A program made the position numbers and the translations under genes. Below, in pieces: positions 94-55,919 of a stretch of 64,000 nt of DNA. How positions within the stretch are numbered: position 1 is the stretch's first letter; each line of letters starts with the position of its first letter. This stretch comes from Candidatus Bathyarchaeota archaeon. GTDB lineage: Archaea > Thermoproteota > Bathyarchaeia > Bathyarchaeales > Bathycorpusculaceae. The stretch is from positions 1-64,000 of the forward strand of contig JALHSQ010000178.1 in assembly GCA_022865885.1 (NCBI GenBank). The letters are read 5' to 3'. A model generated the notes under the pieces. That model was given only the letters and a program-made list of their open reading frames with translations. It was not told the origin of the DNA and made no database searches.

Positions 94-102
94 GCGCGCG
101 CG
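94..102. repeat. Alternating GCGCGCGCG tract
   Basis: A nine-base strictly alternating G/C run in an intergenic gap. Similar tracts of 8-10 bases occur at 28976, 31770, 53862 and 55074, all outside recognised genes. Function is unknown. Confidence 0.6.
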
Positions 103-129
103 GATAAAACTTTACCCCAACCAACCAAA
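102..129 (-). repeat. Dispersed repeat, copy 1
   Basis: This is the reverse complement of the repeat seen at 3085: arm GGTTGGTTGG joined to core GTAAAGTTTTATCC, here on the minus strand. It lies between the response regulator gene and the partial gene at the window edge. Confidence 0.8.
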
Positions 130-142
130 TGGCTTTTTCGGT

Positions 143-616
143 CTATTGTGGTTCAAACAAAGAGTTTCGCTTAACAGCATTGTTTCGATCAGACTCAGAT
201 TTCCGTCCTCTATCTTGATCGAATTCCACCCAATTGCTGATATGTTCAGCAGTCTCCCTTTTCAGATGCTTTCTGATCATCTCCAGCAATTTCTCTGTGT
301 CGAAAGGTTTCAAGATATATCCATCGGCACCCTCGTTAACTGTCTTCATAGCATTCTCTAAGGTCGGAAAACCCGTGATGACTATCTTGATCATGTGGGG
401 CTGGTTTTCCTTCAGCCTGTGGAGGAGCTCAGTTCCCTCCATGTCAGGTAGCTTGATGTCAATCAGGGCCATATCAAAACGCGATTTTTCGGAGATCCTG
501 GTCGCCTGTTTGCCATTCTCCACAGTTTCAACTGAGTATCCCTCCTTGGATAGGATCGAAGAAAGGCTCTTTCTCACGTCTGCGTCGTCGTCAACAACTA
601 GAATACTTTCATTCAA
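143..616 (-). CDS. Receiver-only response regulator
   Basis: A single CheY-like receiver domain fills residues 1-120 of 157. The acidic cluster D9-D10-D11, the phospho-acceptor D53 (in LIDIKLPD), T81 and K103 (in LKPF) are all present, so it should accept phosphate from a histidine kinase. The final 35 residues are polar and carry no DNA-binding domain, so output is probably by protein contact. The start is TTG at 616, preceded by GGAG nine bases upstream; no in-frame ATG fits better. No kinase gene is in the window, so the partner is encoded elsewhere. The gene stands alone between two dispersed repeats (102-129 and 726-748). Confidence 0.9.
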   Translation of the reverse strand: MNESILVVDDDADVRKSLSSILSKEGYSVETVENGKQATRISEKSRFDMALIDIKLPDMEGTELLHRLKENQPHMIKIVITGFPTLENAMKTVNEGADGYILKPFDTEKLLEMIRKHLKRETAEHISNWVEFDQDRGRKSESDRNNAVKRNSLFEPQ

Positions 617-725
617 TCACTACATCTCCGCTTTCTCATCTGGGGCAACCTTACATTTTTACTATGGGCGGCATAAGTTTTTTATGAAGCAGAAATATGA
701 AGCGCACGCTAGCAGGCAAGTTTTT

Positions 726-748
726 GGTTGGTTGGGTAAAACTTTACC
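726..748 (+). repeat. Dispersed repeat, copy 2
   Basis: Arm GGTTGGTTGGG is followed by core TAAAACTTTACC, which is the near-palindromic alternative orientation of the core at 3085. It sits in the divergent gap between the response regulator and the membrane-protein gene, so it cannot be acting only as a terminator. Confidence 0.8.
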
Positions 749-838
749 TTTAAGAAACGTTAAACCAGCCTTTCAGATCAACGATTAACTTTTCAATTTG
801 AATAGTTGTATGTTCTGTTGAAAATATAGCGAACAAAC

Positions 839-1615
839 GTGATCAGCAAAATCAGAAATGTCATGATGAAAAGGATTTGGAGAATACCATTGCTCCTGTT
901 GATAGTTATCATACTTGGGGCCTCCACTGCAACTCTTGTAGTATTCTACACCGAGAGGCACACTCTTGCCATTTCCGTTGCTTTGGGGACTGGTGGTCTT
1001 ATTGATGGATACCACGTTGAATATGGTGAAAATCTCACGGCAATATGGACGGCTCACGCGTTTCGTTTGAAGAACAACGGTAGCTTCTCGTTAGATCTGA
1101 GTTTTGATTATACCTCAGAAAATCCGACTTCAGCTAAAGTCTTCTACTCCCAAGATAATGTGTCCACCTTGGAGATGAATCTATAATATGTGACTTCAGT
1201 CGTTCTGCTGCGAGTTTCGGCTGCCTATGAGTTAGAACCGTGGGGCGATTACTCCCATGAAAGCGTTACTGGGATTATTCCAATTTTTCCGAAGTTCACA
1301 GATTCCGAGTCATGCAGTGTCGAATACTCTGGGATTTTCTCGCCAGATGTCAACGTAGCAAAGGTTATGACAAGTGCCTTTGGACTCGAGTTTCGGTTAT
1401 CGTGGGTCAGAGTCTTCAAAGACAGTAATGCAACATTTTATTATCAATGGTTGCAAGGGGGTTCAGATGTTTGGGGAGGCAGACCCCTAGAAGTAGATAA
1501 AACCTACAATGACCTATCTGGTGATTTCATGGTCTATTATCCTATACCAGAGAGCGTGACCTCAGCTATTCCATTAGGATTTGATTATGTCAAATGGATT
1601 AAAGACAACGCCTAG
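839..1615 (+). pseudogene. Membrane-anchored extracytoplasmic protein interrupted by an in-frame TAA
   Basis: Two reading segments lie in the same frame: 839-1186 (115 aa, GTG start; an ATG at 863 is an alternative) and 1190-1615 (141 aa). They are separated only by TAA (1184-1186) and one TAT codon. The first begins with a basic stretch and one membrane segment (about residues 14-36), then a beta-rich extracytoplasmic domain. The second continues beta-rich sequence with no signal or anchor of its own, which argues for one ancestral gene broken by a nonsense mutation. Two separate genes or read-through are less likely alternatives. No family recognised. The gene stands between dispersed repeats at 726 and 1798. 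Confidence 0.55.
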
Positions 1616-1797
1616 ATCACTCTTGAATAAAAGTGATAGCCTATTCTTGCACGCTATTCCGTAGCATTCTTCACAAGATACACAGCTCGTGCTTCTGCTT
1701 CGGGTCGAGGCAGGGTTTCGTTGAACCGCCTCACTCGAATTGGCGGGAGTTTGGCGAGAAGCCAAAAGGCAGCAACAAGATGCTATTCATGATAATG

Positions 1798-1830
1798 TTG
1801 GTTGGGGTAGAGTTCTTTCCAACCAACCAA
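1798..1830. repeat. Dispersed repeat, copy 3, with both arms
   Basis: This copy shows the full inverted-repeat form: TTGGTTGG on the left, GGTAGAGTTCTTTCC in the centre and AACCAACCAA on the right. It lies in a convergent gap between the broken membrane gene and the M29-like gene and could fold as a hairpin in either transcript. Confidence 0.8.
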
Positions 1831-1833
1831 GGC

Positions 1834-2949
1834 TTAGCACATTAAACCATCGGCGACTATTGTCTTGCTGTCAACGCTGACTGTCGCCTTAGTCATCGAA
1901 CCCCACCAGTGACGATTGCTAGCGGTTCGGTTTTTTCCTCCTTTGTCTTCATTTCCTCCAATTCCAATTGTGATGCCACCCAGAGCTTTATCGTCTTGAG
2001 TGAAGCCGTGTCTCAACCTTGCATTAAGTCCAAAGCCAACAAAAGCAAACTTGCCAGAGTCCGCGTCCTCAGATTTGAGATAGCTCTCAAACGCCTTAAT
2101 TCCTGATTGTGCGTCATATTTCACGATTTTTCCATGTTTGAAGTTTAATGTCAGATTCTTGACTCTATTACCTCCGCGAACTAAAATGGGAGCATCATAT
2201 ACTACAATCCCTTCTGCACTGTCTTCATCTGCTGCAACTTCCACAAATCCTGAAGGCAGAAACTTAACGATCCCTTTTGTCCCATCTTCTTTTCTGACCA
2301 CACTGTCACCAAGCGTCGGTTCTCGTCCGACCAGCCTAAACTTGAGCTTCGTGCCAGAGGGTGACGCAATGTCTACCTCTTGACCACGCCTGACTATTTC
2401 AGCCAGTTTGGAAGCTCTATCGGTTATCTCCTGCTGGTTAACTAGACAGCCTGCAAGCATGACCTTTCTCCATTTCTCATGATTCAAACCAAGAGCCTGT
2501 GCTCGCTCTTTTGTAACCAAACAGTATTCAACGCCCAGCATTCTTACAGACCGTTTCTGAGCCAGTTTTCGCCACGCACCCATGTATCTGTTTGACTCGA
2601 GAAACCAGATGTTGGCAAGTTCCTGTTTCTCCGAAGGTATCCTGCTCCAATCTACTGGAGTTTTTGGACCTAACAAGAAAACGAATGCGTCAGTCTGTCT
2701 TAATATGGCAGTTTCAAATGGCGAAAGAGTCTCCAGCAATTCCCTTGGAACTTCCTGCAATGAACGCGTCCAATAGTTCTCTGTGGTAAGAGTAATCAAC
2801 GGTCTGGCTCCTTTTTGCCTGCATAGCATAGCTATTTCAGAAGCTATGTCAATCGTATGGTCCCAGCTACTAATCCATACATTTTCGCCTTCTCTTATGT
2901 TCAAGCAGGACGTTATGATTTGATGTGCAAGCTGCTCATCATTCATCAT
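1834..2949 (-). CDS. Divergent M29-like (aminopeptidase II fold) protein
   Basis: About 371 residues, the usual length for M29 peptidases. The C-terminal half has the family landmarks: a GFGLN stretch near residue 310, a GGITIGIGGN-like segment, then GGKN followed by RHWW and a final D-rich strand. By eye the metal-ligand positions of M29 (Glu in the GxGTN strand, His in the GT-x-HIALG strand, Asp in the HWD motif) are not conserved, because HWD reads HWW here. It may therefore be inactive as a metallo-aminopeptidase or act on another substrate. The start is one of two tandem ATGs at 2949-2944 after GAGGG; an upstream in-frame GTG at 2961 is less likely. It stands alone between repeats at 1798 and 3085. 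Confidence 0.7.
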   Translation of the reverse strand: MMNDEQLAHQIITSCLNIREGENVWISSWDHTIDIASEIAMLCRQKGARPLITLTTENYWTRSLQEVPRELLETLSPFETAILRQTDAFVFLLGPKTPVDWSRIPSEKQELANIWFLESNRYMGAWRKLAQKRSVRMLGVEYCLVTKERAQALGLNHEKWRKVMLAGCLVNQQEITDRASKLAEIVRRGQEVDIASPSGTKLKFRLVGREPTLGDSVVRKEDGTKGIVKFLPSGFVEVAADEDSAEGIVVYDAPILVRGGNRVKNLTLNFKHGKIVKYDAQSGIKAFESYLKSEDADSGKFAFVGFGLNARLRHGFTQDDKALGGITIGIGGNEDKGGKNRTASNRHWWGSMTKATVSVDSKTIVADGLMC

Positions 2950-3267
2950 ACCCTCGACCACTCACTAGCCAATTTGGAGAACAACTGGTTATTCCTTCTA
3001 GGAATGAGTTCTCTTCTGGTCCAGGCTATAACTCTTCCGTGCTTCTATCTGTCCAGAATATGCCATTTAGAGGTTCGGATTGGTGGTTGGTTGGGGTAAA
3101 GTTTTATCCTGAAACTGCCAAGGGACTAGAGCCCACACCTGTTACTTGAGCTGAAAGGAATTGCTTGCTTAATATCTGATTTCAACCTCAGACCTTAAAT
3201 CTCAAGAAATGCAATTGCTAATGACCTCACTCAGTATGCGCGAGCAACGGTATTGGAGTAGACTGCT
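2950..3267. other. Intergenic gap carrying dispersed repeat
   Basis: This divergent gap holds the repeat copy at 3085-3109 and otherwise no convincing gene, RNA or hairpin. Short open frames here look like noise. A weak GGAG precedes the GTG start of the plus-strand gene. Confidence 0.6.
3085..3109 (+). repeat. Dispersed repeat, copy 4 (reference form)
   Basis: The clearest one-armed copy: arm GGTTGGTTGG then GGTAAAGTTTTATCC. It is identical over its 25 bases to the minus-strand copy at 102-129 apart from flanks, and its core recurs exactly at 30665 and 31580. Confidence 0.85.
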
Positions 3268-3855
3268 GTGGGAAAGAATAAGACCAAATTCAACTATCCG
3301 CCTTTCGTTATGCCCGTAAGTCTTGTAGGAGCGAACGTAGGCGGAAAGCCTAACTTTGAAGCAATCGCATGGTTCAACCTCGTGGATTATCAACCAAACC
3401 TAATCAGCATCTCATCCGAGAAAACGCACCACACGAATAAAGGAATACGCGAAAACAAAACGTTCAGCGTGAACATACCGTCTGCCAGCATGGCTGCGGC
3501 CACTGATTTCTGCGGAGTGTATTCAGGTTCGAAGGTTGACAAGTCAAAGACGTTTGACGTCTTCTACGGAGAGCTCAAGACTGCTCCCATGATAAGCGAA
3601 TGCCCCGTTAACGTCGAATGCAGACTCAATCAGACGTTAGAGCTGTTGCATGGAGAGGTTTTCATCGGGGAAATCGTCGGAGTATACATGGAAAACAAGT
3701 ACCTGACCGACAACAAACCAGACACAAGAAAAATCGATCCACTGCTTTTCGAGGGGACTCTCGGAAGCTACTGGAAAGTTGGAGAACACGTAGCCAAAGC
3801 CTTCGGAATAGGAAAAAACTACAAGCCAAAACAGAGCAATGACAACAGGGAATAA
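3268..3855 (+). CDS. Flavin reductase-like FMN-binding split-barrel protein
   Basis: A 195-residue protein resembling the flavin reductase-like family (COG1853): an early PVSLVGA strand, NFEAIAWFNLV, SISSEKTHHTNKGI and NIPSA motifs lining the expected FMN site, and a final barrel strand near residues 120-150. Members bind FMN and are often electron carriers or reductases in anaerobes. The start is GTG at 3268 with GGAG about ten bases upstream; the protein begins MGKNKTKFNYPP, typical for the family. It is bounded by dispersed repeats at 3085 and 3892. The substrate cannot be inferred. Confidence 0.85.
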   Translation: MGKNKTKFNYPPFVMPVSLVGANVGGKPNFEAIAWFNLVDYQPNLISISSEKTHHTNKGIRENKTFSVNIPSASMAAATDFCGVYSGSKVDKSKTFDVFYGELKTAPMISECPVNVECRLNQTLELLHGEVFIGEIVGVYMENKYLTDNKPDTRKIDPLLFEGTLGSYWKVGEHVAKAFGIGKNYKPKQSNDNRE

Positions 3856-3891
3856 CGCGGATGCCGTACTGTAATTGCGTCAGCAGCAATT

Positions 3892-3920
3892 GGCTGGTTG
3901 GAGTAAAGCTTACGCTCTCC
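3892..3920 (+). repeat. Dispersed repeat, degenerate copy 5
   Basis: GGCTGGTTGGAGTAAAG followed by CTTACGCTCTCC keeps the arm-core layout with several changes. It lies in the convergent gap after the flavin reductase-like gene and is the last copy of the left-end group. Confidence 0.6.
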
Positions 3921-4056
3921 CATACGCAAAACATAAGGTCTGTGCAAAATCAAGAGAAAGTTGAAAACCAGCAAATCTGGTCGGAGTATAGGAGCTATTA
4001 GGAGAAAGAGAATGAAGACACTTGGCAAGCGCATTTCTCAGGCTGACTCGCAGGAT

Positions 4057-4866
4057 CTACTGGCGAATGGCTATGCTTCCAGCGTTCGTTTCCACGATCA
4101 ATCTCCCGGCTCCAGCACCGATGCGACCCGAATACCTATTTCGTTCATAACGAGCATCAGCAAGTTCCGGAATACACTTGATGCTGCCCAGATTCGTCGA
4201 AGCTTCCACCATCACGTCCTGCTCGCCCTTTAGCGCAATCTCGATGCTTCCAAGACTAGTTCTGAACCAGCTCTCGCTCTTTGACAAGGCACCATTGAAC
4301 CTGATTGAACCAGCAGAGCTGCGGGCAGTAATGGTTCCCTTCACGTTTTCCATGGTGACGGACCCTGCCTTGGTTCTGGCTCTTATTGTGCCCTCACAAT
4401 CCTGCATATTTATTGTGCCCGCGGCAGACTCCGCCGAGATCACCCCATTCACTCCTCCGATCGCGATGCGACCAGCCCGACTTTCAATGCTAAGGTCTGC
4501 CTCTTCCGGTACCAAGATGCTAAAATCAGCCCTAGGCCCAATCCCAAACATGTATGGTGGCCAACCCCAATGACCTGTTCTAACATGGCAAGCTACGGTT
4601 ATCGTGTCGCCATCTTGTGATACGCTCCAATCGAGATCCTCCGGCACTCTAAGGTCCACATCAATGGTCACTTCACCCTTGGAGCCTCGCTTCACTTCAA
4701 CTGCTCCCGGCGCGATATTTGTTACAGTCACTTTTGGTTTGCCGCTAACCTTCAAAACGCGATGCGTTTCAAAGGGTTTAGCTTCAAGGACTAAAGCTGT
4801 CCCGCAAGCGGAGCAGAATCTTGCATCGTCAGGAAGCTTGGTGCCACATTGTTTACAGTAGAGCAT
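4057..4866 (-). CDS. Zinc-ribbon protein with DUF4097-type beta-solenoid
   Basis: A 269-residue protein with an N-terminal zinc ribbon (C4, C7, C18, C21 in CKQCG and CSACG) joined to a region of repeated short beta strands such as SRAGRIAIGG, SAAGTINMQDCEG, TKAGSVTMENVKG and SSAGSIRFNG. These rungs are characteristic of DUF4097/putative adhesin-type right-handed beta-helix domains. There is no signal peptide or membrane segment, so it is probably cytoplasmic or membrane-peripheral. Such ribbon-plus-DUF4097 proteins are common in archaea without known function. The gene is monocistronic by spacing. Confidence 0.75.
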   Translation of the reverse strand: MLYCKQCGTKLPDDARFCSACGTALVLEAKPFETHRVLKVSGKPKVTVTNIAPGAVEVKRGSKGEVTIDVDLRVPEDLDWSVSQDGDTITVACHVRTGHWGWPPYMFGIGPRADFSILVPEEADLSIESRAGRIAIGGVNGVISAESAAGTINMQDCEGTIRARTKAGSVTMENVKGTITARSSAGSIRFNGALSKSESWFRTSLGSIEIALKGEQDVMVEASTNLGSIKCIPELADARYERNRYSGRIGAGAGRLIVETNAGSIAIRQ

Positions 4867-4970
4867 TACACATTTCGCCTCACGTTGCTCACTTGTTCTA
4901 TTCCTTAATAAAGCAATAGCTTACACTTTGAGGAGAGAACCTTGGTTCCCGAAACAATCAAGCAACACAC

Positions 4971-5843
4971 TCATGCACTGATAACAGTGTAGTCTTGTTC
5001 ATTCTTTACTCCTAGGCCCAGTTCCACAGCCCTGCGAATTTGCGTGTAAACCCAAGGATCAGCACTTAGACTTGAACCTTCATAACTGCCGATTATCTTT
5101 ACTGCTTCAGCGTCAATAGCGATTCTATCTCCTGAAGCTAGCACGACATTCGGATTCCGGAGTTCACCGCAGGCGGGCCCACCGGAAATGAAGCATTTTC
5201 TCCCATCCACAATTACCAGATCTGGATGCACCACAAGATTCAGGTCTGCAACCTTTTCTTCCAGATGTCTCGTGTGAAGCATAATTCGTTCACTAGGTTT
5301 CATGAAACCCACTGACGATTTCAGGCTCATGGTGAATTTTGCCCATTTGTGCGTCTTCATGCAGCAGGCATGGATGAGCTTCTTTGATCCCGAAGCGCTC
5401 TTAGGCAAGCTTACTCTCTTCAGGTATTTTCCGCCAGTATCGGTTCGAACCCATTCCCCCTCGTCAAAACACATAACCTCAGCACCGGCCTCCTTCGCTC
5501 TTGCAAGCATTCCTGTTTCTTCCATAACTTTGCGAGTTGACAGTGACATCATCGATGATTCGCCAATAACTACCTTTGAAGCGCCATGTTTGAAAAGCAA
5601 TTTCACGATTGCCTTGATGAATTCAGGATCGCTTGATGCAGGTGGTGCGTCGGCGGTGTTGAAGTTTGGCTTCAAAAGAATTTCATCTCCAGACTCGCAG
5701 ATTCTCCCGAACCCACCTGCCAGATTGACGGCTTTCAAAATGTTTTCCTCCAGGCCATCAGTGCATCCAACCTTGGCAACCACGACTCTTCCATCTTTCT
5801 TGAAGGCAGGTCTTCCCAATTCACCAATACCGATTTTGTTCAT
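4971..5843 (-). CDS. DUF362 family protein
   Basis: About 290 residues matching DUF362: the LLKPNFN motif near residue 55, the VVIGESS strand near 95, an HACCMKTHKWAKFTMSLKSSVG stretch (nt about 5330-5400) and a VDGRKCFISGGP segment near 220. The family is widespread in anaerobic archaea and bacteria, often beside iron-sulfur proteins; its reaction is unknown. This copy lacks the C-terminal 4Fe-4S ferredoxin domain that many relatives carry. ATG at 5843 is preferred over an in-frame codon at 5858. Downstream order on the same strand places it after the HExxH gene, but a 67-base gap leaves co-transcription open. Confidence 0.85.
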   Translation of the reverse strand: MNKIGIGELGRPAFKKDGRVVVAKVGCTDGLEENILKAVNLAGGFGRICESGDEILLKPNFNTADAPPASSDPEFIKAIVKLLFKHGASKVVIGESSMMSLSTRKVMEETGMLARAKEAGAEVMCFDEGEWVRTDTGGKYLKRVSLPKSASGSKKLIHACCMKTHKWAKFTMSLKSSVGFMKPSERIMLHTRHLEEKVADLNLVVHPDLVIVDGRKCFISGGPACGELRNPNVVLASGDRIAIDAEAVKIIGSYEGSSLSADPWVYTQIRRAVELGLGVKNEQDYTVISA

Positions 5844-28995: not shown

Positions 28996-30384
28996 TCAGG
29001 GAAACAGAGGGTCATACCAGCCGAAGTTCCTGCTGGTTCTAGCAACATCCGCGACGTCTATTCTGCCGTCTTGATTTACATCGCATTCAATATTCCATCT
29101 GGGGTGACCAGCGTATGATCCGAATGCTGAAGACAACATAGCTACATCTCTCACATCTATTTTTCCGTCTCTGTTTACATCGCTTTCATGCAACGAAGCT
29201 GTCCCGCTGATGTGAAGTGAAGGATCACCAACTATTTGCCACCCGTATTCTACCCCAGGGATTTTGTATTCAGGGTCGACCATTCGCATATCCTCGTAGA
29301 GTCTGATGTCTTCCAAGTAAGCTTCACCTATGCATTTCCCTTCAGATAGAGCTTCGTAAAATTCCTCGCGATACTGATGCGTCTGTAACGATGTGTCAGC
29401 GCTGTCTCGACTGCCGATAAACAGAAGCCCGTACGTATCTGCAAATATAGCTGACCCAGCCACGCTGTTGTAACCTGCAGTGGTGAAGCATACGTTGTAA
29501 ATGTAGAAGAACGTGTGAGGATCGATGTATCGATAATCAGTTCCAAGGATACTGCCGTCCCAATCTCCGTGAAGTTCGAACGTGTGGCTACCAGGCGAGC
29601 CGTGGCTTGCGAGATAAATCCACTCATAGCCTTCGAGAAGCCTCTCTCGATAATCACTGGCTACGGTTGCTTCATCATCATTTACGAGAACTATGTCTTC
29701 ATAAGCAGCTCTTATCGAATCAACAAATAACTCTCCCCATCCGTCATATACATCAAGATCGATTAATGCTCGTCTCGGCAGAGTGAGTTCGCCAGTTCTG
29801 TAGAGATGATTCTTTCTGAAATAGTTGTTGAGCAACAAGATATCATCACCGTAAACCATAGAAGGCTTGAGTGATCCCACCCATATTTCCGCACAGACTT
29901 CACCACTGTGCGTATCATACCAACCATTGCCGTCGGTGTCGTTCCAGACTCCATCGAGATCCATAAAGTATAGGTCTGTTTGAAATATGATGTGTGTGCC
30001 CGATTCATAATTAGCGTATTCATAGTAGGCTTCAGGTATGTCACCTACCAGAAGGCAGCCAACCAAGCCTATCGGCAAAGCTTGTTGCAGGAACGACCTA
30101 ATTGCTGTGGCATTGTCAGTTGACACTGTGTATATACGTACTGAAAATCCATCGATGAACTCTAAATCCTTGGCATACTGGATCAACGAGGCTTCGATCC
30201 CGCCAAAAAGAGATGTCTCAACCAGAACATAAATCCATCCTCTAGGTGACGAGTGAGAGGTTTGATATTTCAACTCTATTCTTGAAACAGCAGCTTCTGA
30301 TTTAGCTGGTTGGACTTTAAATGCTATTGTCAGCATGCTGACTAGAAGCAAAACAAACATGAAAACAGATAACGCCCTCTTCAT
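28996..30384 (-). CDS. Secreted gingipain-like (C25/caspase-fold) protease with dockerin repeats
   Basis: About 462 residues from ATG 30384. A Lys-Arg start and hydrophobic stretch MKRALSVFMFVLLLVSMLTI form a signal peptide. The central domain resembles C25/gingipain caspase-fold peptidases: VGCLLVGDIPEAYY, an ALIDLDVYDGWGE stretch, the catalytic His in YLASHGSPGSH and Cys in FYIYNVCFTT, then SAIFADTYGLLFIGS. The C-terminus has two calcium-binding dockerin-type repeats (DVNRDGKIDVRDVAMLSSAFG and, after 20 residues, DVNQDGRIDVADVARTSRNFG; each written as seen over 20-21 positions). Dockerins bind cohesins, so the enzyme may be tethered to a surface scaffold or simply stabilised by calcium. The N-terminus could extend further upstream, but the signal peptide fixes 30384. 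Confidence 0.82.
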   Translation of the reverse strand: MKRALSVFMFVLLLVSMLTIAFKVQPAKSEAAVSRIELKYQTSHSSPRGWIYVLVETSLFGGIEASLIQYAKDLEFIDGFSVRIYTVSTDNATAIRSFLQQALPIGLVGCLLVGDIPEAYYEYANYESGTHIIFQTDLYFMDLDGVWNDTDGNGWYDTHSGEVCAEIWVGSLKPSMVYGDDILLLNNYFRKNHLYRTGELTLPRRALIDLDVYDGWGELFVDSIRAAYEDIVLVNDDEATVASDYRERLLEGYEWIYLASHGSPGSHTFELHGDWDGSILGTDYRYIDPHTFFYIYNVCFTTAGYNSVAGSAIFADTYGLLFIGSRDSADTSLQTHQYREEFYEALSEGKCIGEAYLEDIRLYEDMRMVDPEYKIPGVEYGWQIVGDPSLHISGTASLHESDVNRDGKIDVRDVAMLSSAFGSYAGHPRWNIECDVNQDGRIDVADVARTSRNFGWYDPLFP

Positions 30385-30489
30385 TCTCGCCTTCTCCTTC
30401 GCAAAAGCCACTGAGTGATTATCCATTGCCACTCTTTTATCACTTATGGAACACTCCTCTAGAAGCATCAAACAACAAAGAAACATACC

Positions 30490-30663
30490 TAGCGCGTATT
30501 CTGGGTGTTTGTGTGTGTTTTTTATTTGTTGAGAGAGTGAGTGAGGGGGTAGGGGGGGAGTCGGTTTGAGAGTTAGTGTGGGAGTGAGTGGTAGTTGGAG
30601 AGAGTTAGTGAGATAGAGTTAGTTAGTGCGTGCGAGAGAGAGTCAGAAAACGAGAGAGAGAAA
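30490..30663. repeat. G-rich low-complexity tract upstream of the protease gene
   Basis: About 170 bases made almost wholly of G, T and A on the plus strand: GTGTTTGTGTGTG, then runs of GAG, AGTGAG, GGGGGTAGGGGGGGAG and AGTTAGT units, ending in GAGAGAGAGAAAGG and a dispersed repeat core. No period is fixed, so it is not a simple tandem array. It has enough G runs for G-quadruplex formation and probably arises by slippage. Confidence 0.75.
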
Positions 30664-30690
30664 GGGTAAAGTTTTATCCCAAACCCAAAC
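30664..30690 (+). repeat. Dispersed repeat, copy 6
   Basis: GGGTAAAGTTTTATCCC followed by a right arm AAACCCAAAC. The core is exact. The copy lies just upstream of the membrane-anchored nuclease gene. Confidence 0.8.
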
Positions 30691-30771: not shown

Positions 30772-31266
30772 ATGAATGTCTTTGCTGTTTTCTTTCCACT
30801 CTTGATTCTTGTAGTAGGATTCTTTGTAGTAGTATTGATATTAATCTGGATTTTTCTAAGGAATTTGAAACCAAGACAAGAATATGGAGTAGAATCTGTC
30901 ACTCTGAGAGGGGAAACAGTGAAAAGTATTGGAGAAAGGAGAATTGCGGATTACTTTGAGAAAAACAACATTAATTATGTCTATGAACAAGAAGCAAGAG
31001 GGAAGTCTCTATTTTTTGAGTACAAGATCAGTTCACCAGATTTCTACTTACCTGATTATAATGTGTACGTCGAATATTGGGGATTAGTGAAAGCAGATGA
31101 TAGCTGGACAAGGGAAAAATATGTCAGAAACATGAAAAGAAAGATGGCTATCTATCATAGAAACAACATCAAGTTCATATCAATTTATCCACATAATTTG
31201 GAAAATCTAGATTGGATTTTTAGAATGAAATTCAAAAAAGTCACAGGTTTTGAACTTCCTAACTAG
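30772..31266 (+). CDS. Membrane-anchored PD-(D/E)XK nuclease-like protein
   Basis: A 164-residue protein with one N-terminal membrane helix (about 4-29) and a soluble domain. The latter reads GERRIADYFEKNNINYVYEQ, SSPDFYLPDYNVYVEYWG and a helix ending in NNIKFISIYPHNLENLD. The order helix-Glu, then D in PDFYLP, then E in VEYWG is that of small PD-(D/E)XK nucleases such as those fused to helicases or in very-short-patch-like enzymes. DNA around 30961-31020 is only 30% G+C, against 47% in a sampled line of the hdr operon. It is bounded by dispersed repeats at 30664 and 31577 in the same core orientation. A defence or mobile-element role is inferred; substrate unknown. Confidence 0.7.
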   Translation: MNVFAVFFPLLILVVGFFVVVLILIWIFLRNLKPRQEYGVESVTLRGETVKSIGERRIADYFEKNNINYVYEQEARGKSLFFEYKISSPDFYLPDYNVYVEYWGLVKADDSWTREKYVRNMKRKMAIYHRNNIKFISIYPHNLENLDWIFRMKFKKVTGFELPN

Positions 31267-31461: not shown

Positions 31462-31576
31462 ATTCTCCTATTGAGCGTGGGTGGGGTGATTGGCTGTGCT
31501 TCGTACACTGTCTTTTTTCCTGACCCACGGCTGAGTCCCAGCTTGGGTTGCTTCTGGGGGTTGGTTTTGTGTGTGT

Positions 31577-31608
31577 GGGGGTAAAGTTTTATCCAACCAA
31601 CCACAACC
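31577..31608 (+). repeat. Dispersed repeat, copy 7
   Basis: GGGGTAAAGTTTTATCC with right arm AACCAACCACAACC, preceded by a G/T-rich left flank containing GGGGGTTGGTTTTG. It has the same core orientation as the copy at 30664, so the two are direct repeats bracketing the nuclease gene. Confidence 0.8.
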
Positions 31609-55151: not shown

Positions 55152-55919
55152 ATGCGTGCCAGCAAGATAACGTTGGGCGACTTGAACAAGACATATTGCT
55201 GCATTTGCGAGACGCCTCTTGGCGCAAAGTGGGCTAAAAGTCTTCCTGAGTCGAGGAAGTGGTTGGCTAACAACTTGGGAAAACATGTTGAGGGGTATCA
55301 TCTCGTGGATGATGGCAGAGTTGTGGGCCACATTTACTATGCGATGTCTGACGAGGCTTTGGTTCCTTATGAAGTTGAGCCTAGAGTGGCGATCGTGTAC
55401 TGCACCGAAATGCTTCACGACTATATGCACAAAGGATACGGCAAGCTAATGTTTGATTACATGAAAGAGGACCTTAAGAAACAGGGGGTCAAGGGAATAG
55501 TGGTGCCTTCAACGACTTTCAAGGAGTTCATGCACTACGAGTTTTTCTTGAAGCAGGGTCTTAAGGTGATAATGGAGCACGCCCCTTTCAAGGTAATGTA
55601 TTATCCACTCAACAAGCAAAACATCAGCATCAAACGTATAGACCTGAATTACAAGCCATCCAAAGAAAAGGTGGAAGTCACCCTGTTCAACAACCTCTTC
55701 TGTCCGGTGGGAGCCTACATGCACAGCTTGGTGAAGAGAGTCGCTAAGACCTTCGGAGACAAGGTCAAGATAGTTGAAATCGAAGCAACACTGGAGACCA
55801 TTCGGAAGTACGGAACCAGTGACCCACTGATCAACGGGAAAATAAAGATGTGGGGTCCAACTTCTGAGGCAGAAGTGGGGAAGGCGATACAGGAAGAGGT
55901 TGACTCGTTCAAACGGTGA
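55152..55919 (+). CDS. GNAT acetyltransferase with C-terminal thioredoxin-like (YoaP-type) domain
   Basis: 255 residues. N-terminal GNAT domain (about 1-155) includes VGHIYYAMSDE, IVYCTEMLHDYMHKGYGKLMFDYM (acetyl-CoA loop) and FKEFMHYEFFLKQGLK. C-terminal part (about 165-255) has VEVTLFNNLFCPVGAYMHSLV, a thioredoxin-like strand-helix with a single Cys, matching YoaP-like tails. ATG 55152 with GGAGGT spaced seven bases. Acetyl acceptor unknown. Confidence 0.82.
   Translation: MRASKITLGDLNKTYCCICETPLGAKWAKSLPESRKWLANNLGKHVEGYHLVDDGRVVGHIYYAMSDEALVPYEVEPRVAIVYCTEMLHDYMHKGYGKLMFDYMKEDLKKQGVKGIVVPSTTFKEFMHYEFFLKQGLKVIMEHAPFKVMYYPLNKQNISIKRIDLNYKPSKEKVEVTLFNNLFCPVGAYMHSLVKRVAKTFGDKVKIVEIEATLETIRKYGTSDPLINGKIKMWGPTSEAEVGKAIQEEVDSFKR

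Follow-up and report, generated by a model that had tools for sequence, protein, structure and literature searches.

Here, we describe a short dispersed DNA element of Bathyarchaeia and propose that it is probably the recombination site of an archaeal gene-cassette system that operates in these archaea and in their viruses. The window analyzed, a stretch of 64,000 nucleotides, comprises bases 1-64000 of contig C130 of the metagenome-assembled genome (MAG) G000 (2.64 Mb, 240 contigs) of a Candidatus Bathyarchaeota archaeon. It holds six full copies and one half copy (core register 3901) of a 16-bp core, GGGTAAAGTTTTATCC. A preliminary description of the window had suggested that such copies could bound single-gene cassettes. 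This suggestion has held up: the genome contains about 35 copies, the cargo between them is unrelated, their neighbors change, breakpoints fall in the core, and one and the same site exists in an empty and a filled version. Among the papers searched, none contained the core sequence or a Bathyarchaeia cassette system.

Two comparisons provide the strongest evidence, and we regard them as decisive. The first concerns the gene for signal recognition particle (SRP) RNA (Rfam RF01857), the promoter of which is itself a core sequence, GGGTAAAGTTTTATAG. As TAAAGTTTTATA, it stands at a constant distance and with at most one mismatch at 26 of 30 family loci, and this form of the promoter is also kept in genomes that lack dispersed elements. 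In G002, the SRP promoter is empty and comprises just one core, flanked by a G/T arm. In G033, a different species of the same genus, it holds a 742-bp flavodoxin cassette in the layout ..GTTGGTTGGGGTAAAGTTTTATCC-AACCAACC..flavodoxin..TTGGTTGGTTGGGGTAAAGTTTTATAG-SRP, with flanks as in G002. In silico excision of exactly 742 bp from G033 merges two alignments to G002 into a single one of 2,371 columns, and the core is the sole duplication in this pair, with no target duplication beyond it. The left junction of the filled site (ATCC, the cassette end) combines the host-left and cassette-right ends, while the right junction (ATAG, the host end) combines the cassette-left and host-right ends; this is the pattern predicted for integration of a circle via a crossover within TAAAGTTTTAT. 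A flavodoxin cassette with 80% protein identity to that of G033 is found elsewhere in G000 (L023). G061, G024 and G012 carry short inserts of other kinds at this position, which makes the SRP promoter a recurrent target. The SRP promoters of L102 (G006) and L110 (G004) differ, reading GTGTAACTTTTATAT after an arm-like G/T-rich run, and may represent a variant of this type of event. G000 has three SRP RNA copies (C107, C159 and C188), two of them at contig ends beside cores, which could reflect a strain mixture at a variable site. The core was absent from the three tRNA upstream regions that we read for further targets, and a general promoter motif derived from 250 upstream regions gave a signal too weak for use.

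The second comparison concerns viruses. By inspection (and, for capsid, by Pfam), contigs in IMG/VR with several copies of the core code for terminase, portal, capsid or tail proteins, identifying them as head-tailed viruses, and the core is present in only a minority of related viral contigs. Outside an array located between the capsid gene and a head gene, L044 and L047 share 96-98% identity; exactly between the cores, L044 carries a single cassette of 325 bp and L047 two different ones. With the cassettes deleted, the two contigs align over 1,710 columns at 97%. The arms remain with the outer DNA, with differences of one repeat unit or one base (AACC twice vs. three times). L114 and L116, with capsids 98-99% identical, are free of the array, and a 48-bp sequence that occurs twice around the whole array in L044 occurs once in them. 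Likewise, in L113 a 48-bp direct repeat at 4036-4083 and 4958-5005 bounds the viral cassette array. In the close viral relative L115 (8810-9450), the gap between the capsid and connector genes holds an open reading frame (ORF) resembling a homing endonuclease, next to which part of the 3' end of the capsid gene is duplicated; this is another type of insertion at the same place.

Comparisons run outward from each core add further breakpoints. L017 (G000) and L056 (G024) are 93.7% identical over 1.5 kb until the core and unrelated thereafter, L019/L057 and L054/L063 are homologous on the right side of the core only, and in several pairs one flank is alike and the other unrelated, with the switch inside the core. 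Breakpoints of synteny thus lie within the copies, as the preliminary description had proposed to check, and its expectation of many copies separating unrelated accessory genes, with neighbors that differ between genomes, was likewise borne out. The cargo, identified by Pfam matches, is mutually unrelated. It includes a response regulator, an M29 peptidase, a flavin reductase, flavodoxin, creatininase and an alpha/beta hydrolase, as well as phosphoribosyltransferase with nucleoside phosphorylase, LemA and TPM, GNAT acetyltransferases, a methyltransferase and a UvrD helicase; in viruses it includes a CAP12/Pycsar-type TIR protein and a MEDS sensor. The TIR effector domain is encoded by a viral cassette gene at 6960-7997 of L046 and represents defense-like cargo. 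Between two cores of L054 (G024 contig C187), positions 1343-1903 encode a full TATA-binding protein with two TBP repeats (E 2e-62), and the core itself is a TATA-box sequence.

Copies are patchily distributed. In G000, 28 sites match a 14-bp version of the core with ≤1 mismatch vs. 0 for a reversed-pattern control. Among 257 genomes of the class Bathyarchaeia searched with a 17-bp core (≤1 mismatch), most have zero copies, and multiple copies are found only in G000 (26), G024 (19), G012 (13) and, weakly, G004 (4), which represent different genera of one family. Relatives of the window's cassette genes are scattered over contigs and genomes: window DNA 175-700 (response regulator) shares 83% identity with a copy on contig C254 of G024, DNA about 69% identical to that of the M29-like gene occurs in G024 C3 and G061 C198, and the flavin reductase has a relative in G063. 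No core was detected adjoining these relatives on G024 C254, G024 C3, G061 C198 and in G063.

The anatomy of the element was derived from 80 copies picked by the core alone (≤1 mismatch of 16). The conserved unit is the 16 bp of GGGTAAAGTTTTATCC, beyond which nothing is fixed. It is an imperfect palindrome in which GGGTAAA and GGATAAA flank a central GT. Next to the core, G/T makes up 87% of the left side and A/C 89% of the right, and both biases fade to background by 12-15 bp. These arms are microsatellites, (TTGG)n, (TTTGGG)n, (GTT)n, (GTG)n, (GT)n, (GA)n or (GGAA)n on the left and (AACC)n, (CCCAAA)n, (CAA)n or (CA)n on the right. Within an element, the two arms match each other's complement no better than shuffled pairs do (3.88 vs. 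3.88) and, therefore, belong to the cassettes on either side rather than to the core. Arms that pair as a hairpin are rejected on the same ground, complementarity within an element not exceeding that expected from composition, although some arm combinations do fold. The palindromic form at 1798/1805, which had been singled out as recalling recombination or mobile-repeat sites, is one arm combination rather than a class of its own. Cores are intergenic in 70 of 72 cases, compared to 27% of random positions, and the two genes nearest a core have no fixed direction. GCGCGC motifs, often TAGCGCGCGC, occur at 1.28 per kb within 300 bp of cores vs. 0.42 per kb elsewhere in the fetched loci; they may represent either a further motif of cassette ends or a property of intergenic DNA.

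We suggest the following scheme. A cassette would consist of a single gene or a few, in many cases together with the DNA upstream of them, and of a short G/T-A/C microsatellite arm at each end. It would probably be excised as a circle bearing one core. Integration would proceed by a conservative crossover within the TAAAGTTTTAT shared with a target core, yielding core-cassette-core, with the conserved SRP RNA promoter GGGTAAAGTTTTATAG as a natural target. Because such an integration rebuilds the SRP promoter at the right junction, SRP RNA should still be made. Repeated insertions would build up arrays, both chromosomal ones and those of head-tailed viruses, and the viruses could transport cassettes between hosts.

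Which enzyme would carry out these steps can be narrowed down. The integron integrase IntI (TIGR02249) is lacking at its cut-off of 265 bits (best match, 42 bits) in seven element-bearing genomes, which are incomplete MAGs. The 2-bp GT center hints at a serine recombinase; however, PF00239 has no match in G000, G012, G024, G061, G033 and G004 and a single one in G002, and we reject this candidate for its absence from copy-rich genomes. By contrast, tyrosine recombinases (PF00589) are present in each of the seven genomes, from 2 matches in G002 to 30 in G000. The lack of IntI, the lack of serine recombinases in copy-rich genomes and the presence of tyrosine recombinases in all make a tyrosine recombinase acting in trans the most likely, though still putative, agent. 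At three loci, a tyrosine recombinase lies within about 1 kb of a core, which is not clearly above chance, and the element contigs of G012 encode no tyrosine recombinase. Among 56 tyrosine recombinase proteins of the seven genomes, one clade has members in six, one of them beside elements (L060); we rejected this clade as the system's recombinase, since it is spread over many element-free genomes and is not specific.

Several observations weigh against a dedicated cassette system. Nearly all genomes encode tyrosine recombinases whether or not they have elements, so that these enzymes are not specific; no recombinase was linked to the sites by association, and no circle was observed. Adjacent cores are co-oriented in just 32 of 47 pairs, making the arrays less regular than those of integrons, and many chromosomal elements are solitary. 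Moreover, all data are from MAGs or metagenome contigs, and the estimated contamination of G000 is 7.6%. As regards binning, L032 (A05DMB-2, the same as G013 C83) and L068 (G002 C34) are a case in which a 3.7-kb contig from one MAG is identical to part of a contig from a MAG of a different genus. One of the two is probably misbinned, and single-element counts in such MAGs, therefore, need caution.

We also considered a bolder version of the cassette proposal, namely a categorically new kind of archaeal gene capture that has a TATA-box promoter site founded on the SRP RNA gene, that caps cassettes with G-rich microsatellites running 5' to 3' toward the joint on both sides, telomere-repeat-like and perhaps added during the processing of free ends, and whose cassettes are shuttled by viruses. 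We put this forward tentatively and lean against it in its full form.

Among the alternative explanations, the one that survives best, although improbable, is that cassettes are exchanged through ordinary homologous recombination, with core and arms acting as short dispersed repeats and no dedicated recombinase involved. At some junctions the arms do lengthen the identical stretch, the viral array as a whole is flanked by a 48-bp direct repeat, and a viral relative has a different flank duplication next to its inserted ORF. However, exchanged junctions are often identical over the 16-bp core alone while the arms differ, the core is near-invariant in 80 copies with free flanks (in part owing to their selection at ≤1 mismatch), and several genera as well as viruses use one and the same core. 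Less credible still is that the core is a strong promoter (B recognition element/TATA box) ahead of accessory genes, with the arms as promoter flanks and mobility as incidental. The position and conservation of TAAAGTTTTATA upstream of SRP RNA suit this idea, but genes downstream of the core follow its direction 28 times and oppose it 44 times, cassettes are exchanged to either side of it, and genomes without dispersed elements retain the SRP promoter and not its G/T arm (6.5 of 12 bases vs. 10.6 of 12). On account of the mixed gene orientation, we reject a pure promoter role. We give slightly less credence to a transposon family or one resembling repetitive extragenic palindromes (REP) or miniature inverted-repeat transposable elements (MITE), i.e., small inverted-repeat transposons with the intervening genes as bystanders, which the preliminary description had entertained and which would suit dispersed, partly palindromic copies in both orientations and their patchy occurrence among genomes. 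This idea is not supported, for three reasons: outside the 16 bp the copies have nothing in common, their arms are independent, with complementarity at the shuffled level, and in the clean G002/G033 pair a gene-bearing unit was inserted with the core as the sole duplication. Least probable of all is an assembly or binning artifact, in which unrelated contigs were fused at a short repeat: elements are enriched at contig ends (10 of 34 within 700 bp vs. 13% expected, p=0.008), as expected where arrays vary within a population, and G000 has its contamination and three SRP RNA copies, but the ATCC/ATAG junctions, which misassembly is unlikely to have invented in separate assemblies, the syntenic flanks and the exact excision hold across such assemblies, and viral contigs of different metagenomes have identical boundaries.

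Within the window, a 36-bp profile trained solely on copies outside it recovers exactly six elements at 26.8-48.1 bits, compared to a top null score of 4.3. The 14-bp core with ≤2 mismatches has six matches vs. 0.44 expected from shuffles; five are elements, a match at 55593 is armless and at chance level, and the degenerate copy at 1805 is missed at this cut. The preliminary description had listed copies at 102, 726, 1798, 3085 and 3892, of which the profile supports the first four and reduces the last to a half element. It had placed exactly one gene or broken gene in each interval, which agrees with our annotation. Element 1 (102-127, minus strand; 32.6 bits) has its core at 102-117 and a G/T arm at 118-127 that reads GGTTGGTTGG on the minus strand; the opposite side, GCGCGCGC, lacks an A/C microsatellite. 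The arm GGTTGGTTGG, which had been given as part of the element, is present and is merely one of many arm types. Next come cassette 1, a response regulator receiver protein (143-616, minus; PF00072, E 6e-31), and element 2 (724-749, minus; 26.8 bits), with core AGGTAAAGTTTTACCC at 734-749 and right arm AACCAACC at 724-733. Cassette 2 (839-1615, plus) encodes a predicted membrane protein with a frame broken by one stop into 839-1186, which has no Pfam match, and 1190-1615. Element 3 (1797-1829, plus; 31.5 bits) is palindromic, with two arms around a degenerate core, GGGTAGAGTTCTTTCC, at 1805-1820 and a hairpin z of −3.1. It is followed by the M29-like peptidase gene of cassette 3 (1834-2961, minus; PF02073, E 2e-18) and by element 4 (3084-3109, plus; 37.2 bits), with a GGTTGGTTGG-type left arm, the core at 3094-3109 and no right arm. 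Cassette 4 (3268-3855, plus) encodes a flavin reductase-like protein (PF01613, E 8e-24) and is followed by half element 5 (3891-3916, plus), which retains the left arm and TAAAG while its right half has diverged; it scores 5.4 bits with the full profile and 16.8 bits over its left half, GGCTGGTTGGAGTAAAG, which ranks fifth among all 18-mers of the window.

Two further copies bracketing a gene near 30.7 kb had also been reported, and the profile confirms both. Element 6 (30652-30690, plus; 32.7 bits) has its core at 30664-30679, a (GA)n left arm and the right arm CAAACCCAAAC; element 7 (31569-31604, plus; 48.1 bits) has its core at 31579-31594, a (GT)n left arm and the right arm AACCAACC. The gene between them (30772-31266, plus) encodes a protein of 164 aa with a hydrophobic N-terminal stretch and no Pfam match, which is 30% identical over 99 aa to a UvrD-helicase cassette protein of G024 (L058). 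Adjoining this pair, 28996-30486 encodes a protein of 496 aa that has a dockerin type I domain and weakly matches C25 peptidase. The statement that no copies exist elsewhere is correct for the window and fails for the genome.

Bathyarchaeia are common and abundant in sediments. What we describe is apparently a previously undescribed archaeal gene-capture system and offers a concrete route, outside the integron family, by which single metabolic, regulatory and defense genes could be gained and lost. The promoter of a universal RNA gene serves as its attachment site, and its 16-bp tag ties host and viral gene content together and can be searched for in any metagenome.

Among known systems, the closest parallels are integrons and dif modules. 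Integrons and clusters of attC sites lacking integron integrases, including archaeal integrons (PMC9668308), have also been reported in phages (PMC9892861). They share single-gene cassettes, arrays, site-specific gain and loss and diverse accessory cargo with the Bathyarchaeia system, in which cassettes likewise come and go exactly at the sites. The two differ in that the element-bearing genomes searched have no IntI over the cut-off and no attC-type pair at their sites; in a simple pattern test, an R'' (RYYYAAC)/R' (GTTRRRY) pair spanned the site in 0 of 82 elements vs. 0.4% of random positions. Integrons use attI beside intI whereas here the SRP RNA promoter is targeted; the site, a promoter-like core of 16 bp whose arms vary, and the mixed array orientation are further differences. 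With neither IntI nor attC, we reject identity with integrons. In Acinetobacter dif/pdif modules, as here, gene modules are bounded by short sites, and a conserved inner palindrome has more variable outer parts; their recombinase is encoded elsewhere and acts in trans, as the one proposed here would (PMC6449649). However, dif sites span 28 bp in an 11-6-11 arrangement with a variable 6-bp center (PMC6449649), while the Bathyarchaeia unit has 16 bp, an invariant center, and microsatellite arms in place of fixed flanks, and its hosts are archaea and archaeal viruses. Archaeal integrases that target tRNA genes (PMC8371274) also integrate conservatively at a conserved stable-RNA gene and restore it; here, by contrast, insertion is at the SRP RNA promoter, and the inserted units are single-gene cassettes that bring no integrase with them. 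Elements of the MITE/REP type (reviewed in PMC10969869) are similarly short, dispersed, partly palindromic and intergenic, but the elements described here lack a common body past 16 bp, terminal inverted repeats of their own and, in the filled/empty pair, a target duplication, have independent arms, and mobilize the gene between copies. Altogether, the Bathyarchaeia system works like integrons or dif modules and, by the tests made, is a member of neither.

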